From Stropharia rugosoannulata (lineage: Eukaryota; Basidiomycota; Agaricomycetes; Agaricales; Strophariaceae), in the NCBI GenBank assembly GCA_028532985.1, contig JANCIK010000003.1:2676001-2740000 (forward strand): a DNA stretch of 64,000 bases, in the 5' to 3' direction. The notes under the pieces were generated by a model. It saw nothing but the letters and a program-made list of their open reading frames with translations. It did not search any database and was not told the DNA's origin. The translations under genes were made by a program, and so were the position numbers. Below are positions 12,914-58,466 of this stretch, in pieces (position 1 is the first letter of the stretch; each line of letters starts with the position of its first letter).

Positions 12914-12959
12914 TGTTGGGGAGTGACCATGGCCGTCCAGCGACATCGTGCAGAAGGCT

Positions 12960-12969
12960 GTGACGTCAC
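12960..12969. promoter_or_regulatory. GTGACGTCAC palindrome in a bidirectional promoter
   Basis: A perfect 10-bp palindrome with the TGACGTCA core of CREB/ATF-type bZIP sites. It lies 17 bp upstream of the LYR gene ATG (12987) and 13-46 bp upstream of the divergent lipase start candidates. It may serve both genes. Binding is inference. Confidence 0.5.
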
Positions 12970-12986
12970 GCTGTTGCTTTTTGACC

Positions 12987-37895: not shown

Positions 37896-38786
37896 TCAAG
37901 TAGAAGGCGTTAGTTTTCTTTCTTCCAATGCATTCAGTATTCCGGAAATCCATTTGCAGCATTGCTTCGCGACTAACGCGCTGTCGTCTATTCAGGAGTG
38001 AGGGTTAAATTTGATATTATCCAATAGTGTTGCAGCGTCAACTTACTAATACAGAACGCATGAGGAATGCCCGGTGGGCCGTGCACCACTTGCTCAGACG
38101 TATTATCCGGATCGAAAGCCTGCAGAACCACCTCCCTCTCTTTATCCACCCAGCGATCGACTACCGCGTAGTAGAAGTACAATCTGTCTTTAAATTTGTC
38201 CAGCGTAACAACATCCAATTCACGAATGAACTTCATTTCCTGAGCTGCCATAGTCAACGAGGATTGGATGCTTATTTTCGACGAAATGAAGTCGTGCAAT
38301 ATGCGTAACTGCGCTTCCGGCCAGGAAGGATAGAGAGAGGAGAGAACGGATGGGGGCAACCATCGGGCTAGAATAGATAGAGAAGATAGGACTCTGCGAG
38401 AAACGGGCCAGAATATGGACTGCAAGAGTGCTCGACATTAGTTCTTGTGCCCTAGCCCTTATAAAAAGTTGACCAACTCACAGAGAGAGCCTTGCCATTG
38501 GGAGTACCACCGATATTGCTTATGGTAGGGAACAGCAAGAAGGCTGCTTCAATTCTATCAGCAGGAAACACTTTCAAGACCTTATACCGGATATAAATAA
38601 GGTGTCCAATGCATGTAGCCATGTTTGATCATACTTGAAGCGACAGCCAACTGCCCACACTATGACCAATAACAATAATCCTCGGTTTCTTCGCGTAAAA
38701 TAGGTCTATAGCCGTCAATAGTGCTAGGGAATTCTCGATTTGAACAGTAAGCGCGTCTTCTGCGCCGTATCTAGCACTGCTATTCT
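37896..38786 (-). pseudogene. Lipid-droplet-associated hydrolase (LDAH), 3' part, severed by insertion
   Basis: Carries the catalytic half of an LDAH-family (Pfam Lipase_2-type) alpha/beta hydrolase. Exons: 38786-38635 (TVQIENSLALLTAIDL, then the nucleophile elbow VIGHSVGSWLSLQ), 38580-38482 (FPADRIEAAFLLFPTI), 38419-38047 (DRLYFYYAVVDRWVDKERE, then GPPGIPHAFCI) and 37987-37896 (stop TGA at 37898-37896). All four exons are open. The first one starts in mid-codon exactly at the edge of the 19.3-kb element. The matching 5' part is at 58466-58109. The combined exons total 1,011 bp (337 codons including stop), normal for LDAH. Unless the element is excised or an allele without it exists, no normal product can be made. 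Confidence 0.88.
38784..38786. repeat. Target-site duplication TCT, left copy
   Basis: TCT immediately left of the element, matching TCT at 58109-58111. In the LDAH exon it reads AGA on the coding strand. A 3-bp duplication is usual for CACTA elements. Confidence 0.8.
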
Positions 38787-38813
38787 CACGGCGGACATTC
38801 AACTGTTAAGTTG
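38787..38813 (+). repeat. Left terminal inverted repeat of the giant element
   Basis: 27 bp identical to the reverse complement of 58082-58108. Inverted similarity weakens but continues to about 38900. Confidence 0.88.
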
Positions 38814-39144
38814 CCGACATGCTTGTAGTGTTAAGCCGGCAAATGCATAGCCGTGGTATACCTGTTAACTAATCTGATAACTGATAAGATCCGGTAAGGT
38901 GTCACATGGTGTTACACAGGTCACATTTAGTTCCGCAGTGCCTGGTGGCCAATCCAAGGCCAATCTCACAGTCAAGGAGTACATATACAGACACACATAT
39001 ATGCATGCTACTTTCTGGAGTAAACGAGTAAACGAGAGTTCTAGACTACGCAAGTAAGTATACAAGACATAGCTGTTGGAATCGTTACAACAAGATAAAA
39101 TAGATCACTTCGATGGGTAGGTAGTTTCAACATATCATTGTCCA

Positions 39145-40331
39145 CTACGGGCGAGAAGAGAGCGGAGCCACTGGAGCAGGGGCAATTGGTACAGATATGA
39201 CAGGCGCGGATACTTCCAATGCAGCTGGGGATGAAATGTAAATGACCGTAGATGCGACAACAGTAGATGGAGCTGGTAGGGGCGTGCCTAGCACTGTCAT
39301 CTGCGTTACTTGAATTTCTATGATTGGAATCGCCTGGTCTTCGAATGAGCGGCTTATTACTCCAGCTATAACCGACGCATTGCATGCGATAATCCCTACA
39401 ATAACCTGAAAAGCTTATGTTAACTGATGTTGCTAGTTGGAGTGAGATCACTCACGACTCCGTTGGCAAAGTAAAGGGACTGCAGCACTACGGCTTCGGG
39501 GTCATGGGTCAGATAAAAGGCCCAAAATAAGATATTGATGGTGAGTGTGCAAATACTGGAAGAGAGTCCAGAGAGGACTATGCATTTCCTTGCTACACTG
39601 ATAGAAGCAAGCCTTGTCACCACGGCGACGGCGCGCCCATTCATGAAGATGACTCCAACATCGACTATAATGTCCACTAGTATATGTCAAAAGTCAGTCA
39701 AAAGTCAGTCGTGTTTGTGTGTTTGCTTGAAGTGCGGCTTACTTGCGAGTGCGGGTACGACCAGTCGGTGAGGCAGTTTGCAAAATTGGTGAGAAGACTT
39801 GCACATATATGCAGTTGCGACGCCATATCCAATGCCGACTGTGACGAGACTAATTGCAAATACGGAGAATCGGAGCCGGTTTCTTCGATTCATAAGCCGA
39901 CCACTGGCCATAGCCAGACTCGTCCGTGAAATCCTACATATATCATGAGTGACCAGCAGCAGGAAAAAGGTCGTACATACCATATTACTACGAAGTACAC
40001 CACAATACTTATTCGAAAGAGGTTGGGCTGCAGTGGTGATAGTGTGGCTAAAAAAGAGATTTGAAAAAGATATGTTGGTCGAACTTCCAGATAACTTACC
40101 ACTTGCGTAAAGAATGGCACCCATTAAGAGTCCCCCTAACCCAGCCACGACGGCGAGTCCGTCGTCGAACCATATGAAGTAGTTTATTCTATTCCTGATG
40201 CGCAAGACGGTTAAAAAAAACCCACAAGCGTGGAGCGACAGAAGGACAGCTAGAACTGAATAAACGTTATCAGGTGTGCTGTAATGATTGTATTGGCTGC
40301 TCTCGAACAACATACCAGCAGTAGCAGCCAT
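39145..40331 (-). CDS. 7TM membrane protein, fungal rhodopsin-domain-like (cargo paralog A)
   Basis: The start at 40331 gives MAATA and an early intron, then VLAVLLSLHACGFFLTVLRI and NRINYFIWFDDGLAVVA, a loop plus helix pattern like the R-x-R...W-D-D motif of fungal SAT4/rhodopsin-domain proteins. Further segments are SRTSLAMASGRLMN, FAISLVTVGIGYGVA, CKLPHRLVVPALA, an intron, VDVGVIFMN, SSSICTLTINILFWAFYL, an intron, and VIVGIIACNASVIAGVISR. It ends with an Ala/Pro/Val-rich tail and TAG at 39147-39145. It is homologous over its whole length to the + strand gene at 44413-45571: SxAMxxGR, CxLPR, the D-x-I-x-D-x-G segment and the intron positions after the start, before the D segment and before VI agree. 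Ligand or function is unknown. Confidence 0.72.
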
Positions 40332-43300
40332 TTGAGGTGAAGGGTCTTGTCTTGACAGAAAGAGGGAGCAGAAAGGAGAGCGGAGTGTTGAAAACTTGAT
40401 GGTTGACGCAAACGCAAACAACGCGAAGAGCTGAGGCAGCAAACCCAGCCGGGACAATCAGAAATAAACATTGAAGTATGGTTAGCGAGCAACAGTTCAA
40501 TTGAGCAACAACATACTGCTAAAGGTCGAGCTTCATTCCGAGAACTCCTCATTTCACACTTTCGTCTTGTCGCAAATATCTTGGACGTGAACGTTGGGAT
40601 CATCTTTATAAATAGGTCGTACATAGAACATCCGTTACGGATTCAATGCAAGGTACGGTCACATACCTTGAGCCACTTCGCTCAGCCATTCCCTTAGCTC
40701 ATCTTCAGCAATATGAAGAAAGTACAAAATACGGTACACTTACCTTGAAATTCATGGGAGAAGTTGAAATCCACCAAAAAAAAACGCGACCTACGACAGA
40801 AAGTGAGTACTATTACCTGTAATGCGGAGAATAAAACGGGACGACGTAGGACCTGCGATGCAGAAAGTGGGATTAAGGTATGGATGAGGACGACATACTT
40901 ACCTTGAAATTAGTCGAAGAAACACCAACCGCAACAGGCAGTGCAACCGACAATAAAGGAAGAAACCCTAAGGCCTCAGAGGATGAAGCATGAACGAAGG
41001 GCTATTTATGATGATGTACTTACCTTGAAAGAGGTTCGCAACAGACAGTGCAACGAAGCACGACTAACTCACAACTTGAAACTCGTGCCTACAACTTGCG
41101 ATTCGGGGATGAAATCGATGAACGGGACCTGCACGTACGATTCAAACACCTTTCGTTAGACACGACAAACGTACAACCTGCATTGCGTACCTAAACCTGC
41201 GATGCGAAAATCGACGAACGGTCGCGTTCATCTACTTGCGATACTTTTTAAACTTGAAGCCTGAATACACGATTCAGTACGAGAGTACGAGAAGATCAAT
41301 CGCATAATTTATACCAGCACACAAAGTCTACCAGCACAAAGTAAGCGATCATACCTGTTGTAAGGCGAGTTCATCTTGATTTAGGTTTCTTATGCTTTGG
41401 TCGTCGTACAAGGGTACTGCGACGTTCCAACATCACGAATTAAGTAGTCAATATAGTCAGGGTGAGCCGCCGTTCACATGGATTATTATTGAACTGACCG
41501 CGTCGAAGTAAAAACTGTCGTTGCCGTTGACTTTTCCAGTCAACTAGAAATCGTCTACAAGTTGTCATATCAGAACGTCGGCAAGTGCGCTTTCCTGAAA
41601 TAAATATCGATGCTAAGAGATTCATCCAAGTTACACAACACATAGGCAAAACATACCTTTCAGGCTAAGGTGCAGTCCCACACGATTTTGTTGAGACGAG
41701 CGTCAATTACTGCACTGCTCATGGTGTCTTCTGCTTGCCACTGTCTCTAGTATTCTGCAGATTGATTCCTTGAAAAGAAATATGGCACTCATGGCGATTA
41801 TTTGCGACAAATGGTCACTATTTACGCAAGTGGCTTCGATCAACCATGGCTTTACTTTGTTTCTGGAATAAGGTGAGATGCCGAAAAATTTCGAGTATTC
41901 GCATACACTAACACACACGCACCTCTATACCGCGACGAAGGTCATGATAGCCCCAATGCCGTGGAATCTTACTTGGATGACCGCAGCTTCATTTTTGAAT
42001 ATGGACGGCGATGTGGCATTGCCAACATGCCTGGTAATTGTCTCCACGCTCTAAGTCCCAACTAAAATGTGAACGAGGACGGGAGAACTGGAAATTTCAG
42101 GATCCAAAAGGCAGAGTCAAATATCGCTGTGGCACGTCGTTTCATCGCCATGTGGTGAAACTGGAAGTCGGGACTCGGACGAGCATAAATGTAACATTCC
42201 CATAAGCTTGCCAATTGGTAAAAACATCAGCTAACGTGTTCATACAGGTTTCACTGTGTACACACCTCAAGTTCCTAACTTTACTCTCCTCTCTGATTCC
42301 TCATCTTGTACGGTCATTTTACACGTAACCCAACTGCTGGCTGTACATGATTGTTTGTGCAAGGGAGTCGGAGACGGACAGGGATGAACTCATTGCAGAT
42401 CCTGTTGGAATACACCGGAGACTTGAATACGGTGGTAATGTTGATCTTTAATGTATAATATGAATGAATAATTCAGCTGAATACCCGCATACAGAATAAT
42501 CCGCATACCTGATTTTCAGTAGGATTTTCATCAGCGGCAGCAGCCGTCAGTCGTGAAGCTCTGCTGTCCTGCTCCACTCAGTCAATTACATTTCCAATGG
42601 GTAGCGCGAGTAGAGCTGTACGTCCATATTTTGGGCGAGCCCCTTTACGGTGATTGCAGGCAGGAGGTGGTGGGAGACGGTTGGGATGAAGAGGAGGCAG
42701 AGTGCTGGGGTCACATGATAATACTCCTCTTCGAACATTCAGATTTACCTTGCTGCTATGACCTATGTGCTTTATACAACTTAATCTCTAGCTTAATTCG
42801 ATCTCCTGTATTGCACAAACAAGCCAGGCTGGCTGTTTGTCGATACTATCCTTACTACTCAGGCATGCAGCGGTCAGACAAGCAATGCTCTCCAGGTCAA
42901 CACTCCAGGTGTTTTAGTGTTCACCTAGGATCGCTGGACGACATCTTGGACGACATCTCTCCCAGTCTTTCATCTAGGCCCACCTCTCAATTTCACCTCT
43001 CCCTGATAAAAATGAAGAATTAAAGTCAGGAGTTGAAAGTCAGGAGTTGACAGCACAGTCGGGCTCATGCGGGCTCATGCCAGGCCAGCAGCTGAGTACT
43101 TCAATAAATACCTACAATATCTTTTCGGTCATTTGCCTATCCTTTGCTATATCAAGCAACAATTGCCGCAATTGGAGCTCGCCATGATTATAACCTGAAG
43201 CGCAAATTGAAACGAAGGAGCCACTGTCACAAAACCAAGTCTCTTTTTGGCACGGCGTGCCACAAGGCGTTTCTCTCGAGGGGTATTGTCATCTCGTTCC

Positions 43301-44412
43301 CGGCCATTTGAGGTTTGTACTTAAGGCGCAGGAATCTGGAGGCCATAATGCTCGAACAATGATTGCAGCCACCGATGCTACATAGCCTCGACAATTCCGG
43401 TCCTCATTCAGGCTGCAACGAGCTTTCCTTGATCCTTGGCGATGCCTTGAATTTATTGAAAACAGTCTCGGTCGGCCCCAGCTCTCTTTTTTACTACTTT
43501 TTTTTTTACTACTTCACTTACTCCTAGGCCTTTGTTTACTAGTATCTTTGGCAAATGGATCTTTGGCGATTGTTTACTAAAGCTACCGCATGTGGGCGCA
43601 ACCTACCTTACCTCCGAATGGTAGTGCGGTAACTCTCTCAGGATTAGATATACGAAGTATGTACTACTGCCATATTAGGCTTCCTGGATGTGGCAAATAC
43701 GCTAATAATTGTTCTCCAAGTTTCTAGACAACCGCACTTACGCTGCCAGGGGACTAAAGATGACGAACCGAATTACCGACTAGGGCTCAACCTATCTACG
43801 CGTCTCGCGTCTCTAGCACGACCCTCATACACAAAGTATGTAGGTGGTTTCCTTCCTTTTTTGTACACTGTATATGTCACATTTATTTTCATGTAGATTC
43901 TTACGAGGCCAGAGGACCAAGTAAATCATTACGAGTTTGTGCACGCTGCCCGACCTTCAACCTCGTAAGTCACCTACTTGTAGTCGGCCCGACACATCAC
44001 TTATTCGCGTTCATCCTCATGCAGTCGTGGTTGTCAAGGCCACGTTGGTTGTTTTCAGACAACCTATCCGACAACTGGCCACCTCTTTGTTAGCCACTGC
44101 AGGTTGCATGAACAACTTAAGGCACTGACATCAAATGTTTCATAACCATTTTCGGCTGCGGCCCTTTTCGACGACTCTTCTTTCCCCGCTTAACAGTTCT
44201 TCTTTCCCCGCTTCGATCTTTCGAGGCTGAATATCACAGCTCTTCTCATCTTTCGCCAGTTTAATTCTGGTTGCTTCCGTTCAACTCATTGAGAGGTTGC
44301 GAAGGGGAAGAAATTACTGTCTGTTTCGACTCACTGAGGCGGAAGGTGAAGGCCGGGGCAGTCAGCAAACCAGTCCGCTTTGCTTCTTCTATTTAACTTG
44401 TGCGGTGGTTAA
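40332..44412. other. 4-kb region of the giant element without a recognised gene
   Basis: Contains imperfect tandem-like repeats at 40656-41240, a 157-codon + strand frame at 42553-43023 that resembles nothing I know, poly-T runs near 43490-43520, and short direct repeats (GGGCTCATGC twice near 43060; CTTCTTTCCCCGCTT twice near 44180-44215). A coherent + strand stretch at about 41930-42230 (SYLDDRSFIFEYGRRCGIAN, possible intron, SQISLWHVVSS) may be a remnant or an unrecognised exon. Confidence 0.4.
40656..41240 (+). repeat. Imperfect recurring motif (TACTTACCTTGAAA / CCTGCGATGC)
   Basis: A TACCTTGA core recurs near 40668, 40743, 40906 and 41025, three times as ACTTACCTTGAAA. CCTGCGATGC occurs near 40850 and 41197, with variants ACTTGCGAT near 41093 and 41232. 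Spacing is about 75-165 bp. It could be a degraded satellite or an array of binding sites inside the element. Confidence 0.45.
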
Positions 44413-45571
44413 ATGACTACCTTTCCAAAAGGTAAGATTCTGAGAACTTGTCGCTCTGTTCTAGCTTACTAACAGATGGTTGAGCAACCATCCTCGGACT
44501 TTTAGTCGCGCTATACATATTAGCTTTTTCATTATCTGCGTTCCGTATTGGCTATCGGATTCGCCACCAAGGAAGATGGCATGACGATCATCTTTCTGGG
44601 GTTTCGGCAGTCACAGGCTTTGTTCTATTTACTCTTCTTTTTAATCTACTTAGTGGGTTCCTGTCTGTTTATTTATCTGCTTATCTGTCTCTAACTCTAC
44701 GAGTAGTATCAGGGATGGTTCTCAAACCCATTCATTATAACGTCAATATGAGCATATTTTTATTTGTTCTCTGGTGCGTAGATCCTGCGCTTCTCGCATC
44801 TGATGTCTCACCGGTTTGTGTACCCAGGACTTCGAGATCATGTTTGGCCATGACCACAGGCCGAATCTACATCAAACATACGAAACATGGGGCTTATTAT
44901 AAGCCACCATTCTTGTGGCTTTCTAGCGTAATTTTCGCGTTAGGTGTCATTTTCAGCACCATCTCAATTGCCGTATGCGCTCAAGACCAAACTTGCAGCA
45001 GTCTTAAGGACTGCTTCTGCCGCCTTCCTCGTACATTCTCGGTAATTGCATTTGCCAGTAAGCAGCCCTCTGAACATCACTGTATTTTCATACCCAAGTA
45101 TTTTCCAGGTGACGGAATTGCAGATCTAGGCTTAGTTGGGATCAACGTATACATGCTGACCAATGCTTACAAGTTTTCGGGTTTTGCCACTTTCAGTTGG
45201 AGGACTATTAGTCTTCTAGGCAGCATTTGCACCTTCGCAGGAAGCTCTACACTCTGGGTCTTTTATATCTTAAAGGCACCAGAGAACATATTCCTCTTTC
45301 TTTGTCTGTCAAATCTCACAGTAAGTATATACTAGTACTTATGATAGTGTGGCGAAACTGAAGTCCATACTAGGTCATTATTTCAATGGCTGTATCCAAT
45401 ATACCAATATTTACAGGTGCCGTAGCCCGGCGGGTGTTCCCAGACAACCAACACCCGCCTATGCCGCTGATTCCTCTCAAAGTTGTCATTCCTTCACCCA
45501 GTGCTTCCAGTAAGCCTTCACCCTCTGATGCTATAGCCGCTCCTTTGCCTAGGGTTAATCCCTCTTTTTGA
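44413..45571 (+). CDS. 7TM membrane protein, fungal rhodopsin-domain-like (cargo paralog B)
   Basis: Starts MTTFPK at 44413. An intron with its AG in GTTGAG restores the frame to ATILGLLVALYILAF. Then come FRIGYRIRHQGRWHDDHLSG (the R...W-D-D pattern), VTGFVLFTLLFNLLSGFLS, SCLAMTTGRIYI, LWLSSVIFALGVIFSTISIA, CRLPRTFSVIAFA, an intron, DGIADLGLVGINVY, GSICTFAGSSTLWVFYIL, an intron, and VIISMAVSNIPIFTGAVARRVF. It ends with a Pro/Ser-rich tail and TGA at 45569-45571. It matches paralog A across all helices and at three intron positions, so the two arose by duplication inside or before capture by the element. It converges on the transposase gene. Whether it senses a ligand is unknown. Confidence 0.7.
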
Positions 45572-45753
45572 GCTTTCAATCGTTATAGTTGATGCTTGAT
45601 CCTTCCAATCCTCTCTTTGAAAGTCTGACTATGTTCATATATTTAACTATGTCTATATATTTATATGTGTATATACATTCCATATCACAATTAGTTCATG
45701 GACATTATATCTCAAATATCAAATGTGCATACTCATATACCTAGTCGCGATAC

Positions 45754-48700
45754 CTAGTCGCGATAACGATGAAGACTATTTACTACGACTGTCGCTGGCT
45801 TAAAAATGCCGAAAGTCCCTAGTGGCCTGTCGTAGTACGCAACATGGCCTACAATATCTTCTTCTTCGATAACTTCAAGGCATAGCTGGTCTGGCTTTCT
45901 GGTATAGACCACGCTGGCAAGGTATCCAGGGCACGATAAGTAAGGGCTGCACTTTCTATCATCTCTGGACAAATGTTGATGTTTTGAGACTGCAATAAAA
46001 GTTCTAGGTGTACCATTATTTGTAATGGCAGCCAGTCTCCAAATCGACTCGATGTGGCCGGTATTTTCTCCAGAGATCTTTGAATTGAAGTAAATCGCAC
46101 TATTTCCTGCATGCAGATCAAAGGTGGAATAATTGCGTCCTTTCCATTCAAATCTTTTGACAGGAATGGCAAACCGAGGGAGAACTGGCGCGCAATCGGG
46201 GTGTGGCATATTTTGTGCGTGGCGGATCATGGGAGACTGTGGAGGTCGCACTCTGTTGACATAGATTAAGATTGCTTGGTAAACATCAATGGGTATTTTT
46301 TTGAAACCGGCCCCACTTGGATCCTCTTTATCGCTTGAAGGTACTGGTAAAAGAACGTCATTCATGGCAGCTAATTCTGTCTCTGGCTGGGGATAGGGGC
46401 CACGAAGGACGGCCAGAAGACGCCCGCGACGGCACATTTGCCTGAGCATTGTAAAATCAATTTCCCCTAGTGTCATAATTTGGTTAGCGAAGACAAACTT
46501 TTAGTAGTAGTAAATTCTAAACCTACATAAATGACTATTTGTTTTGATTTTTTGCAGGCGCCCGTTATGGCGCTCACCAGCAAACTCGCTTACTCTAATA
46601 AGCGGTCCCCAGTACTTCATCAACTCTGCATTATGCATGGCATAGTGATGGTTCGGCCTCGTAGCAATGCCAGGAAATAGTACCTGCGATGACTCCCGGT
46701 ATTCCACATAATGATCAAGGTATGTGTTGGGAGAATCAGTTGTGACGACGTATGAACACAAGATATTGGTACACGTAACCAGGCAATAGAAATTCCTTAG
46801 AAGGCTGCTGTAGTCCAACACAGTGACATCCGTTCTCTTCTTTGACGCCCACAGTTCAGGCAAAATGAGTGGTAAAAATACTGTGAAAAGTGTAAACCAC
46901 TGATCGGCTTTCAGCTTCCCATGAGATTTCTCTCCAAGGTTGCCTGGTGGTCGTTCCACCCAACTGGGAATTGTGGCAGAAGAAATGCATGCTCTGACCG
47001 CCTGAAGCTCTTCTAAAGAGAAAACGCAGACCATCTTCACAGTTGAATCATTCTCATTAGAAGAGTCATCATCTGAATCAGAGCCCGGCTGGAAGTCATC
47101 ATCGTCCTCGCTGTCGTCGTCCTCACTATCGCCAGAAAGATCACTAGCTTTAGTTGAAAGAATAAATGAAGCCTCTGACCGCAAGCGGAGCCGTCCAGAA
47201 TGAATGGGATTGTCGTCATGCATGCGGCTTTCGTCGAACAAAGCTTCCAGTTCATTGTGCAGTACATCCTGAAAAACCGGGGCATCGGCGCTACCTAGGG
47301 GTGCATTGTTCACGCCGTCTGGCCCAGCTTCCGGGTCCGCGTCTTGATTTTGGTTAGACACTTTGTTTTTCGAAGAAGGAATGTTTATGCCCAAACCCCA
47401 CCGTACGCGAACATGGTGCTGAAGAATCCCTTCTAACCAGTTATGCATCAAACCGAGCATGGTGTGTTTCACTGGGTCTCCATAGGGTAGGGCGTGAAAG
47501 GACGACCAGCGCACTCCATGATCCTGAAAAATTTCATGCCGTCTTTTCTTGGTTGTTGCAGCTTTCCATTCTTTAGCAATTTCAAGAACTTCCTTCCCAT
47601 TCCGTTTTTCCCATGAGCGGTAGTTCAAATCGTCTATGTTTGATCGCGAGAGTTTGCAGAATGAGCAAAATTGATCGGCCTTGTGTGCTGCATACCCCAT
47701 TGCTTTCTTGATTGCCCCCAGATCGCCGATGCGCGCCAATACTGCAACATGCTTGATGGAGCCCTGGGGATGTCGGTGAGACTTGACCATTTTCCCTTGC
47801 CAGAAAGGCTTGAGAGCCTCAACAATTGGATCAGTAACTGCTGTTATAGTCGTTATTGTAGGTTCATGGGGAGGAGGAATAATTCCGGCAAAGAATGTAT
47901 TTTCGGGTAAATATTGAATGTTCAATGGTAAATTAAGACAGAACAGCATGACTGCACCACAAGAGACGTGCTTCCCTGCTATTTTGTTCATGAAGGGGTT
48001 GTACCAGTCAATGTAATAGCTGAAGGTGAGGTTTCCTGGCGTCGAAGAGAATGTACCATCGGCACCGAGGCTTCTCCAGGCAGGACTGTCAAGGATGGAC
48101 CTCATGTTGTCTGGTGACGGATGGTGCGCATAAGACGCATCTATGATGTCTTCAATTCCTGGTCGCGACAGAAAAAATTCTAACCACGAATCAAAATCCT
48201 GAGTGCAGTAAAGTCGACGAGGCACGCGGCGCGGTCCTCCCCTTGTCGTGCGCACTGTCCAAAGTTTCTCTCCACAGGCCCAGGACCGCGGCGTTTCGCG
48301 GAAGGTGCAAATATCTGGTAGAGATTCGATTTCGTAATGCTTAAAACATTTTGGACAGCACACCGATCTTCTAATCGTGGGTTCAATGGACAGATCGAAT
48401 ACTGCAGTACGGGCGTCTGAGGGTAAACTAGTATTTGCTTCTGAGAACAGGTTCCCTAATTTGATTGCCAGCTGGATGATCATTCCGATTGCTTTCAAAG
48501 TTTGAGTTGTCGAAGCGAGGCTGAGGCCGCATACGACATGCAACCATGCGGCCAATGTGCACACAGCAACAATCAGAGAGCGTCGAAGAGCGCTTAGGCC
48601 TTTGATAACAAGTATTAAGTCTGCGCCGACAGGAAGAAAAAAAGCTACAAGTACGAACTATCTTTGCTATCGGAGCCAGAGGTAGTAGCGTCGCCACCTT

Positions 48701-48997
48701 CAACCTGCTGAAGAAGCGGCGGAGCCTCACGTACGAGAGGCTGCTTTACTTCGAATAAGACCATTGATCGGCGCGAAGACGTGTACTTACCTCTGAAGAC
48801 GAGATAGGTAGCCCGGATGCGTGCCCGGGCACCTGCTCTGGTTCACGTTGCAGGTGACCCTTGTCATGCTTTCGATGATATGCGCGCGTAGACACTGGTA
48901 CAAGTTTTCCTTGCTGATATTGCCCAAAGCTATTCAGAGTTCTGGTTTCCCAACAGCGGGTGCAGGTGCATATGACACGGGGGGGTGTACCGCTCAT
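45754..48997 (-). CDS. Tnp2/CACTA-type transposase
   Basis: Multi-exon transposase gene on the - strand. Exon 1 (from 48997, MSGTPPRVICTCTRC) has a Cys-x-Cys-x2-Cys cluster, then GKLVPVSTRAYHRKHDK, the usual opening of these proteins in mushrooms. The long central exon (48564-46501) has SYYIDWYNPFMNKI, LPLNIQYLPENTFFAGIIP, TDPIVEALKPFW, IGDLGAIKKAMGYA, FCSFCKL, DPVKHTMLGLMHNWLEGIL, an acidic insert, EKSHGKLKADQWFTLFTVFL, NHHYAMHNAELMKYWGPL and EFAGERHNGRLQKIKTN. A last exon adds RQMCRRGRL and a beta-rich C-terminus ending at 45754. These blocks match Tnp2-like transposases as I know them. No stop or shift was noticed, so it may be active. Confidence 0.85.
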
Positions 48998-49185
48998 TAT
49001 TGATAGTTTGATAGTCAGTAGTCAAGACCGGTGGGCGCAGATGTGTAATATATGATTGCCAAGATGGACTGAATTTGACCCCTCCGAACGCTGAGTCGGT
49101 GACTGCCAGAATGACTCAGCTTGACTGTACATACAATTATGAATTTTGATGGATTGGATTGGGTACGATAGAATACATATTGTAT

Positions 49186-50331
49186 TTAAGGTAAGCGCTG
49201 AACAAGCTCCTTCATGTAGTAGTGAACAAACAAGTCGCAGGCTGACTGGAAACTAGGAGTAGCAACCCAAGACTGATTGCTCAGGTCCCCGAGGCCAGTA
49301 AGAGCTGCATTCCTACAGGGCGTGAGCAAGGCTTGCTGCAGGAAAGCAGAAAATATACAAAACGCACATGCTCAAGTACACGCCGGGCTTCGGTCCTTTG
49401 TGGACAACATACCAGACGTTATCTGCAAAAGCTGGGTGATTTACGTTCGGCGCCGAACTTTGAATTTCAGGCATAATCGCACGACGAGCCGCGGCAAGTT
49501 CCTTTGCCTTACTCTTAGCAAGCTGTAGCATTTGGCTGCTAGGACGAGCTACTGACAAAGGCAGAGATCCGTCCCTTTGGTACGCGGCCCATGCTCTATG
49601 AGCAAGGCGATAGAGACTGTAGCCCTTCCAGCTACAGGCCCTATTCGGAAGGCCATTCATAGAGTCCTGGCATACTGTCCTGTGAAGAAGAGTTCAAAAG
49701 CGAGTTCGAAATTGATTTTGTGTTTGAAACACCGCACCAGTTGTAGAATACCCCAGGAGAAAGACCGTTGAAAACAACATAAGCTATAAATCCGTTCGAG
49801 GTCGGCGGTTGAACAGCGTAACGATTTGGGAAGAGGTCGTTCTCGGGAGCTATGAGGTAGGGCTTATCATCTTCAGCGATGTCAGCGCTGCCGTGTGGGA
49901 AGAGTTCTTGCAATGTGAGGCGAGGTTTGTCGTCCGTATCGGCGCAAGTAGCACGAGGGGAACTGGGAGTTGAATTTGCAGATGCCGCGGAAGCTCTGGC
50001 AGCGGCCTGAGGAGACCCGGGCCTTGATGGAGGATTGGAAACATACATACTATCTGGTTTCAAGTGTCAGTCAATGAGCGATTGAATGCTGTTAAGACTT
50101 GCCGTCGGAATCTCCTGCATCCTGGATTTCGGGAATGATATTCTTCTTTTTCTTGCCCGCTTTTACCTTTCCCTCAATATTTGCGTCGTCTCCACCCTGC
50201 TTCGCGTCCTTTTTCTTGCTCTTTCTCTTAGGCTTTTGAAGACCTACAGGGATTATAAATGTCAGCATGCGCAGATGAGCAGTGGCAACCCGCTTGCCTT
50301 CATTAGAACCGGAACCAGATAAATCTTGCAT
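49186..50331 (-). CDS. Viroplasmin/RNase H1 N-domain-like protein (cargo)
   Basis: Exon 1 (50331, MQDLSGSGSNEGKR) has a very basic Lys-rich segment (KPKRKSKKKD). Later exons give a Ser/Ala/Pro-rich linker and two copies of the small viroplasmin fold found at the N-terminus of RNase H1: FIAYVVFNGLSPGVFYNW with continuation SWKGYSLYRLAHRAWAAYQ, and NVWYVVHKGPKPGVY with continuation SFQSACDLFVHYYMKELV, ending at TAA 49188-49186. The pattern Y-V-V-x-x-G-x-x-P-G-V-[FY] is diagnostic of this fold, which binds RNA/DNA hybrids. No RNase H catalytic domain follows. Such proteins are common near mobile elements in basidiomycetes. It lies next to the transposase, on the same strand. Confidence 0.65.
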
Positions 50332-50568
50332 GGCTCTGTAAGCACTTGTCAGGACTGGAGCGCTGTTGAAGGTGGGGGTTTCAGAATTTGAAGGATATGC
50401 TGCATATTCCTACTTATAAACGACGGTATCTGATGATGGGGTCAGGCGGCGCTCGGAGCTGCTCGGAGGCAATGTAATATTTCCAAAGTCGAATCTGTTC
50501 GTGATTTGTGCTATAGCGTCCGGTTCGCTCGAATGGGGACATTGCTTGTTATAATTACCACTGTATAT

Positions 50569-52744
50569 TTACAAGTTCTGTCCACGTTGCAATGTAAAAA
50601 GCCACTGGAGCGAGTACAATGCAAAGAGGGCCTGGCGCACATCCTGGAAATGAGCTTGCCGACTCTCTTGTACTTGCCCGTCAATTTGCCCACCATCTGG
50701 TACCTCTACACCATCTCCTCCTCCTTGGGCTTCGTAGGGCGGCAATTCAAGGGGTCCTGTGGTAACTTCACCCTCAGTACGATCGGATGCGGAATCATCG
50801 CCCAATGTGCGCTGTGCCTGAGACCTTGCAGTGTCCGACGCCAGCACCTCAGTACGTAATATGGCTTCCCGCCTCGCCGACTCAAACTGTTCACCGGATG
50901 TAGCATCATTGCCAGCTTGATCCAAAATGCGATAAGTTTCTCTAAGCAAGGGACTATCTGAGGGACTTGCTGCTTGATGGTGAGGTGAGCGTCTGACAAA
51001 ATCAACCGGTATAGCAGTGGGTGCGTAGTCGAATATTGAAGCGTTGTTTCCGCCAATGGTGACGCAGTCCTAATAGGATTAAGTACAGAGCTAAGAGCTT
51101 GCGTGCGCCGCGGCTACGGTAACATACCTCAAGGTTTAATATGACGATTTGATCATGACAATTCCTAACGAATACAACATGACCTTTGGCACGAATAAGT
51201 CCCACTGCCTTTGTCGTGCGTCAGCCCATGAGATGCAGTTCTTGTTAGAACAAACTTACATAGACGAGTGCTAGTTGTAGTAATCTGTTAAAAAGTTTCT
51301 CGAAGAAAAAATGAAAGCTAACGCACATCTATTAAATGGGCGCAGCATATTAGGCGTCGCAGGAATTATATTCAGCCCACAGTGGGTATTGGGACCGCTT
51401 GCTGAGAAATTGGGTATAATTTCTATAGCCGGTTCTGCTTCGCGCGTTTTGCGAACTAATACTACTGAGTTTCTGTCGTAAAATTGGGCTGCAACAATCT
51501 TCCTGATTGGTGCGACGGCACTATGTACTTTGGTGATGAACGTCTGAGTGGCTAAATCGTAGACATCTACTTCGCCATAAATTGTTACTGAAAGAAAAAT
51601 CTGCCTGTTTGGAGACACGGCTCCAGAGCGACTCCTCAACTAGTAAGATAATGCATTACGGGAATTGAATGATGACTCACAGCATTCTGGCAGGTTCAAA
51701 ATCAATGCATTTCTTTACCTCCCGCGGCGAAGAAGACAGAAATGAGCTACGCCGGAGTAAGTAGTCAGTGTTGCAAGAGGGATTGGTTTCTTACAAAATT
51801 CCAAGTGGATAAGCTATCAAAATTTCATATTTGCCCAAGTACCACATGTCCATCAAATCGTGTCCAGTATGTACGATAAGGCGTTGTGGAATGATATCAT
51901 TTGGGTGAACCACCCCTTTGACATAGTGAGCAGCTCCTTGAAATAGATTAACACGCAATAAGCCTTGTAAGATCTCCTGACTCACTGTCGAAGGGATCCT
52001 TGTAGGAAACGAACTCGTTATTAACGAAAGCAGACAACTCAGTCCCATCGCTATTCAAGCATGACGATGCGAGGCAAACTCTTTCTCCAAAAAACAACTG
52101 ATTTGATAAACTGATTAACCTCATTGAAGTAGATATCTGGGAAGGCGCTATTAAGTTTTCGTCCCGCATATATGAGAAACCATACCTTGTCTTCCTCTTT
52201 CACATGAAGGGACCGAATGTCGCCATTGTGTTTTACCAGTAGAAGTCGATCAGGCAGAAATGGATGCCAACTAATGGCTTCGAAATCTTCACATTCATAG
52301 TCTGCACCTGGACTGATAATATCGCCATTGAAGTGGTGAGAATACAGCCAATTCTGTCGGTAAAGATACCATATCTTAAAGGCGGTGTTACTGCCTGCAT
52401 GAAATCAAATTCTTTAAAAAAAGCTTACTTCTAGATTCCTGTCTGCAGTGCCTAAGGCTAGGAGCCTGCCATCCGGTGAAAGCGATAAAACCGAGACAGT
52501 TCCTTGAAATCGAGGGATGAATGAACGGTGAGATGACTGGAGGCTAGGGTGAAGGTCGGACATGATGACTGACCACTCTCCATTGCGACGCGAAGGCCTG
52601 CAGTACATATATTATTACGGGCATAGATGAGCATGCGCCTTCCTGATACCTCCGAGCTTGCCAAGTAAGTGATTGGCGTCTGCAAGGCGTCTGGATTTTG
52701 ATTTTCTGCTGACTTTCTGCCTTTGTTCTATGTAGTGAGCTCAT
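50569..52744 (-). CDS. WD40/beta-propeller-like protein (cargo; start uncertain)
   Basis: Several short exons on the - strand give repeat-like beta-propeller pieces: FQGTVSVLSLSPDGRLLALG with TADRNLE (52430-52510), DFEAISWHPFLPDRLLLVKH with NGDIRSLHV (52200-52300), RLIVHTGHDLMDMWYLGKYE (51830-51900), and SVTIYGEVDVYDLATQTFIT (51540-51620). Then LNIIPATPNMLRPF, LIRAKGHVVFVRNCHDQIVI and a charged C-terminal tail ending at 50569 follow. The spacing and the D-G-x-L-L-A-x-G pattern fit WD40-like blades, though not every blade is clear. The 5' end is not resolved; ATG 52744 is one candidate. I do not know the family or partner. Function inside a transposon is unknown. Confidence 0.55.
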
Positions 52745-52922
52745 GGTTTGGGCATGCCTGGGTATTCGGACGGCGAGGAGCATGCGAGGCGCGAGACGCC
52801 GACTACATGATAGCGCGGTGTGCAAGGACGGGTCATGTGCTGACATAAGATAAACGCTGCAAGTGTCATTACTCGGCTGCTCCAAGGATCAATCGATCAG
52901 GCTCTGATGCATGATGCCCTAT

Positions 52923-53425
52923 TTACTTGAAAGTCCTGTAAACCCAGTACGCAACACCGAACAACATCAATGCGGCTACTGCTCTTCTCTCAACAAGCTT
53001 GGCTGCTACGATTTCTTCTTTAATCAACTCTGCTTCTCGCTCTTTCTCCATAAGCCTGGTACGCTTAACGTTATATGCTTTTCGCAATTTCAAGTTGTTC
53101 TGTCAATTTGCAGCTTCACAATCAGTAATACGGCCAATTTCACAGTGCTTACCCTCAGCAAAGTGTCCCGCTCGTATCGCAGCTCAACAACGTGTTTTCG
53201 CCCTAGTTCTATCATATCGTTTCTCTCTTCAATTAGTTCGACCAGTCTGTGGTTTGAATCTGCTGCAATCTGGGTTAGCTTTTTAACACATGATTAGTCT
53301 TATCAAACCAGCAATATATATATACAGAAGAAATCTACCTTTGGAGCATCAACGGACCTTCGCTTCGACAACGTCGGAACTAAAACAAAGCTTTCGCTAC
53401 CATCGACCACCTTTCGGCTTTGCAT
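52923..53425 (-). CDS. Small coiled-coil protein with C-terminal membrane anchor (cargo)
   Basis: Three exons. The start at 53425 gives MQSRKVVDGSESFVLV. Exon 2 encodes a heptad-like helix LTQIAADSNHRLVELIEERN and continues HVVELRYERDTLL. Exon 3 adds NNLKLRKAYNVKRTRLMEKE, then AAKLVEKRAVAALMLFGVAY and WVYRTFK, with TAA at 52925-52923. The layout is a charged coiled coil followed by one hydrophobic helix and a very short basic end, so a tail-anchored protein is likely. About 120 residues. I do not recognise the family. Confidence 0.6.
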
Positions 53426-53677
53426 TTCAAGGTGCACAGGCTAGCTTTTAGCGACGAGAACGGGTCAGTCTTTTGTAGGTGCAGCCTGGCGCAGCCAAGA
53501 AGCCGAGCATATATCATACCACATGAACTCCCTTCGTTCTGTAATATTGCGATATATTACTGATGGTTGATCAGACCGACCCAGATACTGCATTGAAACA
53601 AATAGACTACCCCAGTCCTTGCTTTTCTTCCTGGTTTTTGCTCCTTTTGCCCTTCATCCTTCACTAGTGCTGAAGTT

Positions 53678-56014
53678 ATGGCTGAACAACCAGTGCCGCA
53701 ACCAAATAACGAGAATATGCCTATTGTGCTAGATGTAGACAGCGAAATGGATGGGCCTGGCGGATTGGCCGGTTCCGTAGCTGTTCAAGAAGCATCGTTT
53801 CCTGCAACTCCGAATATCGAAGCTTTTTTAGAAAACCTGGTAAGAGTCAGACTCGCCGATTTGGAGGCGCAAACAATCGCCCAGGTGAAAGCGTGGAAAG
53901 AACAAGAAATCGCAATGCGAGCACGCGAGCAGCAATTGCTGGAGGACATCAAGACTCTTAAGGATAGAGTCCAACAGGCTGAAGAGGTAGCTGCCTCTCG
54001 AGTATCTCTAACTACGTGAGCATTATCATCTTCGGGAAAATGGCGTGGCAGTCGACTGATTTTGTATGTCAGACCTGCGGATCGGGATTCTAAGAGTATC
54101 CCAATAATTCCTTCGAAAAGAAGAAAAACGACACAGGGGCCAGTTATTCCGGTACTGAACGACAACAGGAATAGGCGCATCACCCGATCCACTTCGCGCG
54201 GGACTGTGACTGGGACTGCAGCTACCACTCCAGGAAACCCTCCACCGGTTGCTGCGGCTGCGGCGACAGGTGGACGGCGCCCGGTCCTTGCCCCCGCAGC
54301 TCCCACTGGACAACAACTTCAGCCCCCAGCTGTCATCCACAGTCAGCCTCGCTCTACTCGAGTGACTCGGGCTTCATCGCGCTACAATATTGATCGCGCA
54401 GCGGATATGGACAATGGCACCAGTAAAGCTGCAGCATTCGGAGCTTACCCTTTCACATTTTCGCCGGCTAAAGACGCAAAGAAGAAGAAGAAGAAAAAGA
54501 AGAACGTCGTCAAGGCCGCAGCTGAACTTTACCGATATCTTCCTCAAGATATGCCCGATGATATGGGCGGTCTCAATGTAAGTTCCACAGTCTCACTTAT
54601 AGACATGACTGCCTAAATACAACTCTTTTGTAGAAAGCAATGGCACTGCATATCCGCATTCTTTGGGGTCTCACAGATGCCAAAGAGGTTCCAAAGAACC
54701 CACCTGCCAAGGTACTCACGAATTTCCACGACAAATTCAGCAGCGAGGAGGAGCTCTATGCCTGTCAAGCATCTGGTGAAGAATTAATTCCACGCCGCTT
54801 AGTCCAGATTGGTAATGCGATGTCCACTCGAACTGGGCGCATTTCCAGCCAGGCGAGTCTCCTCGAAGAGCACATGCTGCAGTACATCCAAGTCTGCCTT
54901 TCAAGGTTTGGGTTACCTTGCTGGTGCCCTGATCTGCGACTATCAGCGTACTCGCTTTACAATGCTGCTCTGCGGATTGTTGCCCTCGATACCTTCAAAC
55001 AGGCTCTTGTCTCGCATGCATATGCTCATCTTAGTCCCAACACTAAGTACGCCTCCAATACGAGGATTCTTGTGCTCCTGTTTGACCACTTCGTGTTCCA
55101 CTACCTCAAAGGACGGTACCAAAAGAACGACCGTAACCCCGGGGTCATCGCGCAGCAGCTGCAGAAAAGTCCTCAATACATGGCTCGCATACGGGTATGC
55201 CCACTCCCATCATAATTGAAAACTATAGGCTGAATTTCTATATATGTAGCTTGCCTCAGCTCGCCGTAAATTTCTCGAGGAGAATAACTACCCTCAGCGC
55301 TATCGGGACCTCATAAGCACAAAGGCTACATCAGACGATGAACGTGATGCCAGCCAAAAGGTGTGGATTGTAAAGCGCAGGCCTGAGCGCTCAGCTAAAG
55401 CCGAGAAATTCATTCGACTACTTGATGAAAAGCGGCGCGAGGTGGCTCTGCAGAGAGGGCCTCGCTACTGGAAAGAGAGAAAGCGTGTTGTCCCGAATCC
55501 AGACGTCCAACAAGATTCAGAATTCTATGGCCTTCCTGATCACATGCCGGTCGACTACTTCGATCCCGCGTATTTCAACAAACTTCAACCTAAAACTCGA
55601 AATCGAATTGCTGTAGCGCAAGCCTCACTGCTACCTGATGTTGACCAGTCATTTTCGTGGAATGCAGACGAGCGGCTGCTTGATAAAGACTTCACCAGGA
55701 AGTACGGTGCTGCGTTATTTGTGCAGTACGAGATGGTGTCTGATGCTGACATGGTTGCTGATGAAGAGGACGGCGCCGATGAATGGGCGGGTATACCCGA
55801 TGAGGATGCTATGGCCCAGGAAGCTGACGGCGAGGAAGCTGACGGCGAGGACTTAGACATAAACACACTTACTTCCTTCCGAGAGACTCTTTCCAGCCAT
55901 CTTTCTCAACGTGACTACAGTTCGCATGCCTCTTCGCAGATCATCCTATCTAACAGCGGCGCCACTCGCTCGGAATCCACAGAAGGGAGCATGGAGAGCA
56001 TACACCGCCAATAA
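53678..56014 (+). CDS. Charged, possibly DNA-binding ORF of transposon-associated type (cargo)
   Basis: Four exons by my reading, with introns near 54017-54071, 54580-54633 and 55195-55249. The N-terminal part has a coiled coil (VRLADLEAQTIAQVKAWKEQ). Next come basic AT-hook-like and Lys-run segments (RITRSTSRGT, KKKKKKKK), then a helical domain (LLEEHMLQYIQVCLSRFGL, FDHFVFHYLKGRYQK, SARRKFLEENNYPQRYRDL), RPERSAKAEKFIRLLDEKRR, and an acidic C-terminus. TAA is at 56012-56014. I associate this layout with multicopy basidiomycete ORFs of unknown function that accompany transposons, from memory only. A nuclear DNA-binding helper role would fit but is inference. Confidence 0.6.
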
Positions 56015-56324
56015 TGATATTTGCAAGTTCAGATTTCGTAGTTTACTATTTGTATTGTAGTTGCATGCACTAGATACTAGTATACCGCGGAAAAATACAT
56101 CAAATTGTCTTCGACCCGGGAAGAAAAACCACATTGATCATCGATGAACCAGCTCGTCATAGAGCGACACTCACATATAACAGCCAGTCAGTTTTGGCTC
56201 TCTTATCAGCCAATGAAACTGCACAGCCACGCTGGTGCGCAAAACAAAACTTGTTCTGGTACTTTGCTCTTAGTAACGGCAAGTCTCGCCCCTTGGAATC
56301 TCTTAAATCCTCGATACGATCAAG

Positions 56325-57796
56325 ATGGCTCTAAGTGCTAAACAGGATGAAGAGTTGGTCGAAGTGGAAGAAGTGAGCAGTGCCGTCCAAGCTATTTCGG
56401 GCAGCACAGTCCTTCTGCAATCGAGAGTGGTTGCTCGTATTCATGCTTCTGGTCCCCACAGACGCTCTGGAAGGAAAACGGCGACTCGAACTTTACGCAA
56501 TGACCACTATCTTCCCAACGCAGTCACAAGTCCCCGGAATAAGGCGGTATGGAATATCTGGAATATTGTACGGCCAGGGATCTACCACATATTCCACTAT
56601 ATTCTCAAGTTGGGAGAAATATTCGTTCACTGTATTCGCACACCACTCGCCTATGTCATGGTTATGGTCATCCTATGGCAAGGAACAGGCGTACTCATTG
56701 GTCATGCTTCCGATGTTTTCTTGCAAGCCTTGCGACCTACATGCAAGATACTACCCGGAGTAGTATCTAGTCTTCTGCAATGCAATCCACCTTCTTCTCC
56801 TTCTTCTCTGGCAATTGTTTCAGTTTCACAAAGGCGCGCTAAATGGGCTGACTACTCAGCTCTCACCGATATCCAGATTGGTTTATTTGAACAGCTTTTG
56901 AAAGGGTCGGCTGGTGGTCTAAGCTTGTCGCTAGAAATCAAGAAGGCAGAAATGGCAACTTCAGACCTCATAACGCAAGTGAAACTCAGTAATTTGAATT
57001 CGAGGGAAAACCTAGCAATATCTCTGTCAGAATTTGTACAAGACGCCAAAAAGACCGGTAGAAGTTTGCAAAAGTTTGCATCAAAAGTTGGGGGTGCCGT
57101 TGACAAGTGAGTAAAATTACCGAAGTAATTATGTCTGCACAATTCATAAATAAGCGCTGCAGTGTTATGTCGGTCAATGACTATTCTCTGAAGGCGATTA
57201 GGACTGCGCGAGAAGAGGAGTTATCATGGAAATGGATACCTCGTTCTTTAACGCCATCAAAAGAATCCAAAAAGCAGATGGAAATGGTAATAATGCATAC
57301 ATTTGGCGATGCCATGTCAGTCCTCGCCAGCAACATGGAACGGTTGATCGTCGAGGCTGAGATTAGCCTTCATAATCTGGACAATCTCGAAGAGAGCTTG
57401 CGGACGATTCACGCCATTATTGTGCATGAGGATAGCTTTATTTTGTCTGCGAAGACCGACCTCCTCTGGGATCTGTGGACTGTAATGGGCGGAAACAGGA
57501 AAATACTGAAAAACTTCGATAATCACCTTTCTCTTCTACGGGGAATAGCTCACTTTCGCAGGGAGGCACTTCAACATGTCGTTGCTGCTTTGCAGACACT
57601 CGAGGCAATGAGCAACGATATCGAGGATTTGCGAGAACGCATTGCAGCACCAAATCTTATAGGAGAAGCAGTTCCACCTGAAGTACATATAACAAGCATC
57701 CAAAGGAGTTTGGATCGATTGAGCAGAGGTCGAATCAACGCAAAGAAATTAGAAGATGATACGAGCAAACTTGCCATTCAACAGAATTTGTACTAA
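56325..57796 (+). CDS. Membrane and coiled-coil protein of unknown function (cargo)
   Basis: Two exons joined across an intron at about 57109-57161. The protein starts MALSAKQDEELVEVEEVSSA. One or two hydrophobic stretches lie near residues 88-140 (HYILKLGEIFVHCIR; PLAYVMVMVILWQGTGVLIG). The rest is helical and charged with coiled-coil character (SLEIKKAEMATSDLITQVKL; MERLIVEAEISLHNLDNLEE; ALQTLEAMSNDIEDLRERIA). TAA is at 57794-57796, 312 bp from the end of the element. I do not recognise the family. A membrane protein with a long luminal or cytoplasmic helical bundle is all I can say. Confidence 0.65.
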
Positions 57797-58081
57797 TTTT
57801 TTTGAATTCATCTATCAAGTTATAATCCAGGTGAACTTCTTGTCTGACATGTTTAATCTACTCGAGCTACAGGCGTCGTGGCGACTGAACAGTGCGAGGT
57901 TGGTTTGTCGGTTATGAACAGCATGTATCCTCAATATATCACTACTAACTATATCATCTACCGTGACACGACTTTAAGTGACCTGATCTGTGACGTGTTA
58001 CCGTATCTTATCAGTTAACATGTAGTTAACAGCTATCCCCGTGGCAATACCTTTCGTGGCATAACAATACAAACAAGTCAA

Positions 58082-58108
58082 CAACTTAACAGTTGAATGT
58101 CCGCCGTG
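58082..58108 (-). repeat. Right terminal inverted repeat of the giant element
   Basis: 27 bp, exact inverted copy of 38787-38813. Weaker inverted similarity continues inward to about 57990. Confidence 0.88.
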
Positions 58109-58111
58109 TCT
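58109..58111. repeat. Target-site duplication TCT, right copy
   Basis: TCT immediately right of the element, matching 38784-38786. Confidence 0.8.
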
Positions 58112-58466
58112 TGATGCCTGGGTAATGATCCAAGTGCGCCTGAGCAATTATGGCAAGACTTGACGACACTTGACTTGCGTGAATGTCCGATAGGAATGGG
58201 ATATAGAAGTCTACTAGACCGGGGTTACCTTTACGCGCAAGGTATGAATAGTCAATATACCATCGTAAACTATGCCTTGTCTACTCACCGGGAATGAAGA
58301 AAAGAAGAAGTTCTGGCTCCTGTGCATCACGAAGTGGAGGCCACCAGAGAACTTCCGAAGCGCCTAGAGAGCCTGCATGAGTAAACTGTGCTTTCTGAAA
58401 AGATGTGTCCGTAGGGCTCTGGGGAGAGTCGTGCGGTGCAAGAAATGCTGGTAATATACCCGACAT
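58109..58466 (-). pseudogene. Lipid-droplet-associated hydrolase (LDAH), 5' part, severed by insertion
   Basis: Exon 1 (58466-58289) encodes MSGILPAFLAP, VLWWPP and LLLFFIPG. A 60-bp intron follows. Exon 2 starts at 58228 with the family hallmark NPGLVDFYIPFL, which completes the LDAH N-terminal motif [LF]IPGNPGLVDFY, then AIIAQAHLDHYPG. It stops being LDAH exactly at the TCT/CCGTG boundary of the giant element. The interrupted codon is about number 99. The reading phase fits the 38.8-kb half when a single TCT is kept. The gene lies just downstream of the Zn2Cys6 regulator on the same strand. With the element in place this promoter would drive only a short fragment reading into transposon DNA. 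Confidence 0.88.

Follow-up and report, generated by a model that had tools for sequence, protein, structure and literature searches.

A 19.3-kb transposon, probably of CACTA type, in an LDAH-type gene of Stropharia rugosoannulata and the multi-gene lineage to which it appears to belong

In a 64,000-nucleotide stretch of the Stropharia rugosoannulata genome (assembly GCA_028532985.1, contig JANCIK010000003.1, positions 2,676,001 to 2,740,000, hereafter the window), the two halves of an LDAH-type gene (Pfam LIDHydrolase) lie in order on one strand and 19.3 kb apart, which raises the question of what entered the gene and whether the genes lying between its halves are working parts of the intruder or only travel with it. 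The reading put forward here, to which we assign a probability of roughly 80%, is that a cut-and-paste transposon of the CACTA/EnSpm (CMC) type inserted into exon 2 of LDAH, and that this transposon represents a multi-gene lineage whose accessory genes serve the element.

The insert occupies 19,322 bp inside exon 2, and the features at its borders are the following (coordinates are those of the window).

38787..58108, no strand, whole inserted element with perfect 27-bp terminal inverted repeats (TIRs) and a TCT duplication
38787..38813, + strand, left TIR, CACGGCGGACATTCAACTGTTAAGTTG
58082..58108, - strand, right TIR, which pairs with the left TIR
38784..38786, no strand, left copy of the TCT target-site duplication (TSD)
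58109..58111, no strand, right copy of the TCT TSD
58289..58466, - strand, LDAH exon 1, 178 bp
58109..58228, - strand, 5' part of the interrupted LDAH exon 2, 120 bp
38635..38783, - strand, 3' part of LDAH exon 2 with the GHSVG motif, 149 bp, one TCT counted
38482..38580, - strand, LDAH exon 3, 99 bp
38047..38419, - strand, LDAH exon 4, 373 bp
37896..37987, - strand, LDAH exon 5 with stop, 92 bp

The inverted ends are identical at 27 of 27 positions and diverge from position 28, with TCT flanking both sides. When a single TCT is counted, the joined exons amount to 1,011 bp, or 336 amino acids plus stop, and GT..AG is retained in all four introns. Both halves are recognised by PF10230 (LIDHydrolase, cut-off 27 bits), the 5' half (exon 1 plus the exon-2 part) scoring 32.7 bits and one 3' exon open reading frame (ORF), that of exon 4 at 37988-38425, scoring 44.2 bits alone; this match and the G-H-S-x-G motif are both present, as befits the LDAH/LIDHydrolase family. 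The sequence-only reading of this locus, made before the present analysis, had described a transposon splitting LDAH with intact junctions, and the 27-bp ends, the TCT duplication, the open frame and the PF10230 matches bear this out. Its exon lengths add up to the same 1,011 bp, with exon 2 divided as 117 and 152, which gives the TCT to the other half, instead of 120 and 149, while the family name it used, Lipase_2, has to be replaced by LIDHydrolase, Lipase_2 being a different family.

An uninterrupted LDAH in relatives had been proposed as a check, and the 5' and 3' halves do adjoin, in order, in 31 of 36 database relatives, these being the proteins returned by a search with the 3' half alone, to which the 5' half was then aligned upstream. 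The residue spacing between the halves is within 6 of that in this gene for 29 of these 31 (P0042 is off by 12 and P0037 by 27), and of the five relatives left uncounted, four are proteins 148 to 271 residues long and the fifth, from Aspergillus, is distant, its match to the 5' half reaching only E 0.001. The closest named relatives in the 3'-half search were those of Flammula alnicola (60%) and Pholiota conissans (59%). The earlier caveat, that another allele might be intact, is answered as far as this assembly goes, in which the 3' half, searched at E values of up to 10, found no second copy. Because the 3' half matches only its own exons, and because read-through from the 5' half into the element continues for 106 residues and stops before the GHSVG motif, the LDAH of this genome is most likely a null gene, unless a whole copy is present in another nucleus. 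In the proposed course of events, the element-encoded DDE-type transposase would have made a 3-bp staggered cut, the element would have landed in exon 2 and the gene would thereby have become null; loss of LDAH may have altered the lipid droplets.

As to the age of the insertion, the two halves contain no stop across 1,005 nt, which, given that 3.6% of single changes create a stop, places neutral divergence since insertion below about 8% at a level of 95%, a bound that tightens to about 2% under an assumed rate of one indel per eight substitutions. The earlier description of the event as recent, made from the undamaged halves, is thus weakly supported, and a recent insertion may be suggested as a fair but loose reading.

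Whether this element stands by itself was addressed in the 48.0-Mb assembly containing the window (20 contigs, here designated by C-numbers). The exact 27-mer of the TIR occurs twice in it, once at each end of the window element, and with up to three mismatches it occurs at eight places, which are the ends of the window element and of three others; a reversed control pattern was not found in the assembly even with three mismatches. A sister family was found through two near-identical gene clusters on C7 and C13, whose ends, located by pattern, read CACCGCGGACATCTAGG... and bound both copies.

C2:2014161-2054110, 39,950 bp, 40-kb element with ends like those of the window element, TSD TTA
C14:39716-40299, 584 bp, miniature element (L003, L006 pair), TSD TGA
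C6:2410127-2410702, 576 bp, miniature element (L003, L006 pair), TSD ATA
C7:2684738-2721192, 36,455 bp, sister element, TSD TTA
C13:902665-931115, 28,451 bp, sister element, TSD TGA, right end with one mismatch

Matching 3-bp flanks are present in all six elements for which both borders were read (TCT, TTA, TGA, ATA, TTA and TGA), and all six have CAC..GTG termini, with CACGG in four and CACCG in the C7/C13 pair, one C13 end being CACCA. Clustered subterminal repeats are a feature of CACTA/EnSpm elements; a candidate for such a repeat here is GTCAC/GTGAC, a motif chosen by eye beforehand, which in two elements occurs 2-3 times per terminal 300 bp vs a mean of about 0.4 per 300 bp. The two short elements are 95.7% identical to each other, about 85% self-complementary throughout in the manner of a fold-back, and resemble the window element over about 65 bp per end at 76-82%; by this resemblance they are miniature derivatives. 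In the four stretches compared, the C7 and C13 copies are 98.4% identical over 4,956 and 3,094 aligned positions and 98.7% identical over 1,796 and 717, and because copies at separate sites are near-identical where compared, elements of 28-36 kb evidently move.

Two insertions are nested in the 40-kb element and account for part of its 39,950 bp. One is a long terminal repeat (LTR) retroelement (L051:3084-9279, corresponding to C2:2018684-2024879) with reverse-transcriptase, RNase H and integrase ORFs, which was probably inserted recently, since its 464-bp repeats are identical; the other contains the ORF of a canonical Plavaka transposase (L052:4983-6899, PF18759 at E 9e-68, with DUF6830).

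The window element itself contains, besides its transposase, about seven accessory genes, whose models were predicted by us from the sequence.

39145..39911, - strand, TM1, multi-pass membrane-like protein, 3-exon model with 4 hydrophobic segments, paralogues in related elements
44715..45571, + strand, TM2, membrane-like protein, 2-exon model with 3 hydrophobic segments, relatives at C2 and C14
45754..48997, - strand, DDE-type transposase, main ORF 46501-48564 of 687 amino acids, N-terminal exon and start uncertain
49189..50331, - strand, protein with an RNase H1 N-terminal (RNase H1-N)/caulimovirus viroplasmin domain, model read in part by eye, with relatives at C2 and C14
50569..52563, - strand, WD, beta-propeller/WD40-like protein, 9-exon model with uncertain 3' end, relatives near other transposases
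52923..53425, - strand, small charged protein, weak 3-exon model
53678..56014, + strand, G7, 722-amino-acid protein whose listed relatives carry Pfam PF26792
56325..57796, + strand, G8, 2-exon model of a protein with a single strongly hydrophobic segment, paralogues near transposases

TM2 is weakly similar to TM1 (a match to a TM1 stretch at E 8.2e-4), the RNase H1-N protein matches PF01693 at 41 bits (cut-off 21), WD has weak WD40-type Pfam matches, none of which reaches its cut-off, and the small charged protein has no Pfam match at cut-off. All nine listed relatives of G7 are labelled PF26792, and a structure predicted for a Gymnopilus relative from a 9-row alignment has a mean pLDDT (predicted local distance difference test) of 48. 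No relatives were found in the viral contigs scanned.

When the genome was searched with each accessory gene except that of the small charged protein, leaving out the window's own loci, 32 hand-merged accessory loci were obtained and compared with 20 transposase loci merged in the same way. Of these accessory loci, 29 lie within 40 kb of some transposase relative, where about 3% would be expected, and 25 within 40 kb of a close-clade transposase, where about 1% would be expected. On the strength of these 29 loci the accessory genes are not random cargo. The PF26792-type gene (G7) occurs at seven loci, so distributed that every one of the seven close-clade transposases has one of them within 25 kb, and the four large TIR-bounded elements all contain transposase, G7 and TM1 matches. 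In Candolleomyces efflorescens, the G7 relative MD484_g4343 and the transposase relative MD484_g4344 bear successive gene numbers, and a contig of 173,275 bp is listed for each of them. The gene order varies from element to element, and the set is therefore largely preserved while its arrangement is not. By its ends and its genes, the insert is thus best placed in a low-copy, multi-gene lineage of CACTA type with intact ends up to 40 kb apart.

Comparison of the window element with the 40-kb element gave the following replacement and silent differences per site.

Transposase: replacement 0.20, silent 0.79
PF26792-type protein (G7): replacement 0.23, silent 0.78
WD: replacement 0.21, silent 0.66
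TM1: replacement 0.26, silent 0.68
TM2: replacement 0.32, silent 0.71 (78 codons)
RNase H1-N protein: replacement 0.30, silent 0.72 (114 codons)

Replacement differences of 0.20-0.32 vs silent differences of 0.66-0.79 mean that the six genes compared are, as far as such counts can tell, under constraint; the transposase of the 40-kb element contains one in-frame stop. The accessory genes, which recur with the transposase and stay constrained, therefore probably serve the element. The PF26792-type, beta-propeller-like, RNase H1 N-domain and membrane-like proteins would accordingly be working parts of its life cycle and not passengers, perhaps aiding the transposase with a long element, escape from silencing or passage through the mycelium. 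A stronger form, in which the giant CACTA-type lineage of agarics consists of a DDE-type transposase and a functioning module, of at most about seven proteins, that jointly run the life cycle, the membrane proteins perhaps being for spread between nuclei or mycelia, is put forward only tentatively, as we consider it possible and on balance doubtful.

The alternative that survives best, though we regard it as unlikely, is that the cargo is passive, i.e., that the transposase carries host or foreign genes caught between its ends and alone matters. The differing gene order and the lack of some genes in some elements would be expected of such cargo, and the 40-kb element clearly does hold passengers in its nested LTR element and its second, canonical Plavaka transposase. 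However, the same genes turn up again near divergent transposases, all 7 close-clade loci having the PF26792-type gene, and in each of the six genes compared the replacement differences per site fall far short of the silent ones; both points argue against passive cargo.

The class of the element was judged from its ends and its transposase. The transposase ORF has seven close-clade loci in the genome including itself, the other six being 54-67% identical over the longest match, while more distant relatives in the genome show about 28-50% identity. Among the 101 relatives listed, 13 are labelled PF02992 (Transposase_21) and none PF18759 (Plavaka). An alignment of 17 rows, i.e., the window ORF and 16 of the 101, six of them picked as bearing the PF02992 label, has invariant D186, D281, C300 and C303 and near-invariant H640, H644 and E660. 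These columns fit the D, D, C(2)C, H(3-4)H, E rule of CMCT-group transposases (excerpts of PMC12730594), the assignment of columns to motifs, and the choice of those regarded as catalytic, being our own. Fungal EnSpm elements are described in the same excerpts as having CAC..GTG ends and 3-bp TSDs, and because the present elements have such ends and duplications, the insert may be filed, with moderate confidence, under CACTA/EnSpm (CMC) in the wide sense. Neither a tyrosine-recombinase captain nor a TET/JBP dioxygenase was found among the proteins scanned (17 of the 19 element ORFs of at least 120 amino acids, plus seven spliced models), a scan which short exons of a captain could escape. Horizontal arrival was also considered and nothing was found in its support, there being no close foreign relative among the matches listed, of which the best to the transposase is at 60%.

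That the insert is an ordinary member of the Plavaka group of agarics is somewhat less probable than passive cargo. Such membership would account for the sole, weak transposase match of the window ORF, which is to PF18759 (15.2 bits, E 0.013), and for the two of 17 aligned transposases that match PF18759 at E 0.01 (best 8.7e-4), although the score of 15.2 bits lies under the cut-off of 26.3 and, as noted, no listed relative is labelled Plavaka. The ends also differ, CACGG..CCGTG here vs TGT..ACA or CATCA..TGATG in the two Plavaka lineages described in the excerpts of PMC12730594, and when profiles were compared, the canonical Plavaka ORF nested in the 40-kb element gave no significant match (probability 0.23%), a weak test with a single sequence on one side. 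An assembly effect or other rearrangement, by which the LDAH halves would come from two haplotypes or have been parted by something else, is highly improbable, for in the assembled sequence each LDAH half directly borders an end of the element, a 3-bp duplication is present, and the halves form one open frame with splice sites kept.

These PF18759 matches weigh against an accessory-bearing CACTA/EnSpm element, and several other points have to be set beside them. At E 0.01 the transposase ORF of the window has no match in Pfam; six of the 17 aligned rows match Transposase_21, but six rows carried this label when they were chosen, and two rows match Plavaka and one DUF1258. The gene models are predictions from sequence. 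For three of the 32 accessory loci, no transposase was found within 40 kb (one is a G8 relative on C5, another a short and weak match to G8 on C6, with a transposase 55 kb away, and the third a TM1 match on C4 that is likewise weak), and among the four large TIR-bounded elements G8 matches were found in three and WD, RNase H1-N and TM2 matches in two. Two genes show saturation of silent sites and the others come near it, and only aligned exon stretches were counted, which favours conserved parts (left out were the G7 first exon, two short exons of WD, the N-terminus of the transposase and most of TM2 and of RNase H1-N). In length the copies on C7 and C13 differ by 8 kb, with parts of the compared stretches lacking a match. 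Finally, loci were merged manually, the 40-kb limit was fixed once the tables had been seen, and the binomial figures treat loci as independent, which those of one element are not; the association is too large an effect to depend on the independence assumption or on this limit.

Several published systems resemble the CACTA-type lineage proposed here in part, and they are compared as described in excerpts of the sources cited. Fungal EnSpm elements (PMC12730594) differ from those found here, which are 19-40 kb long with about seven accessory genes and no TET/JBP dioxygenase among the proteins scanned, and a typical EnSpm carries one or two ORFs according to a review (PMC6431247). The same review cites enlarged EnSpm elements of 16-20 kb with 4-5 ORFs in the red alga Chondrus crispus, which are likewise large with extra ORFs but belong to a host of another kingdom. 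The Plavaka elements of agarics are CMC-type relatives in the same kind of host and differ in their ends and in a PF18759 score which is below cut-off here. Starships are also large, multi-gene and fungal but are classed by their tyrosine recombinase (PMC12134995), in contrast with the DDE-type transposase here, and eight have been reported in the basidiomycete Tremella fuciformis (PMC13066641). HELPO Helitrons of Pleurotus hold captured genes, including in one copy a PF01693 viroplasmin/RNase H1-N gene (PMC4289320), and differ in being of the rolling-circle class. Because of the Chondrus crispus and Tremella fuciformis reports and the mention of elements up to about 42 kb in a transposable-element library of Marasmius oreades (PMC9674265), neither such a size nor the occurrence of giant elements in basidiomycetes is new; a published description of this element family or gene set was not noticed in the literature searched.

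A further cluster at C14:91528-125515 (L011, L042, L045, L046, L061 and L063), 34 kb on a 215-kb contig, contains beta-propeller-like, transposase, TM1, PF26792-type, RNase H1-N and TM2 matches; ends were not found for this cluster or for those at C7:2517 kb and C3:3823 kb. Elsewhere in the window, two SNF2-related ORFs (PF00176) occupy 25002-27046 on the + strand in overlapping frames and are possibly one intron-bearing gene, and the region 12000-14000 reaches a GC content of 62-71% with strong skew of opposite signs in two neighbouring kilobases, resembling by eye two divergent GC-rich coding genes.

In conclusion, the LDAH insertion is an apparent natural knock-out of a gene kept whole in many agaric relatives, and as an event it is an ordinary transposon knock-out; the larger finding is the transposon, which the sequence-only reading had left unidentified, and its membership of a family with a shared gene set. 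This gene set, including membrane-like proteins, accompanies a single transposase lineage at seven sites of the genome. If the accessory genes are indeed working parts, the element would be a giant mobile element of fungi that relies on a DDE-type enzyme, standing beside the tyrosine-recombinase Starships, and its borders and target duplications, together with the near-identical mobile pair and the miniature derivatives, would be at hand for testing it.

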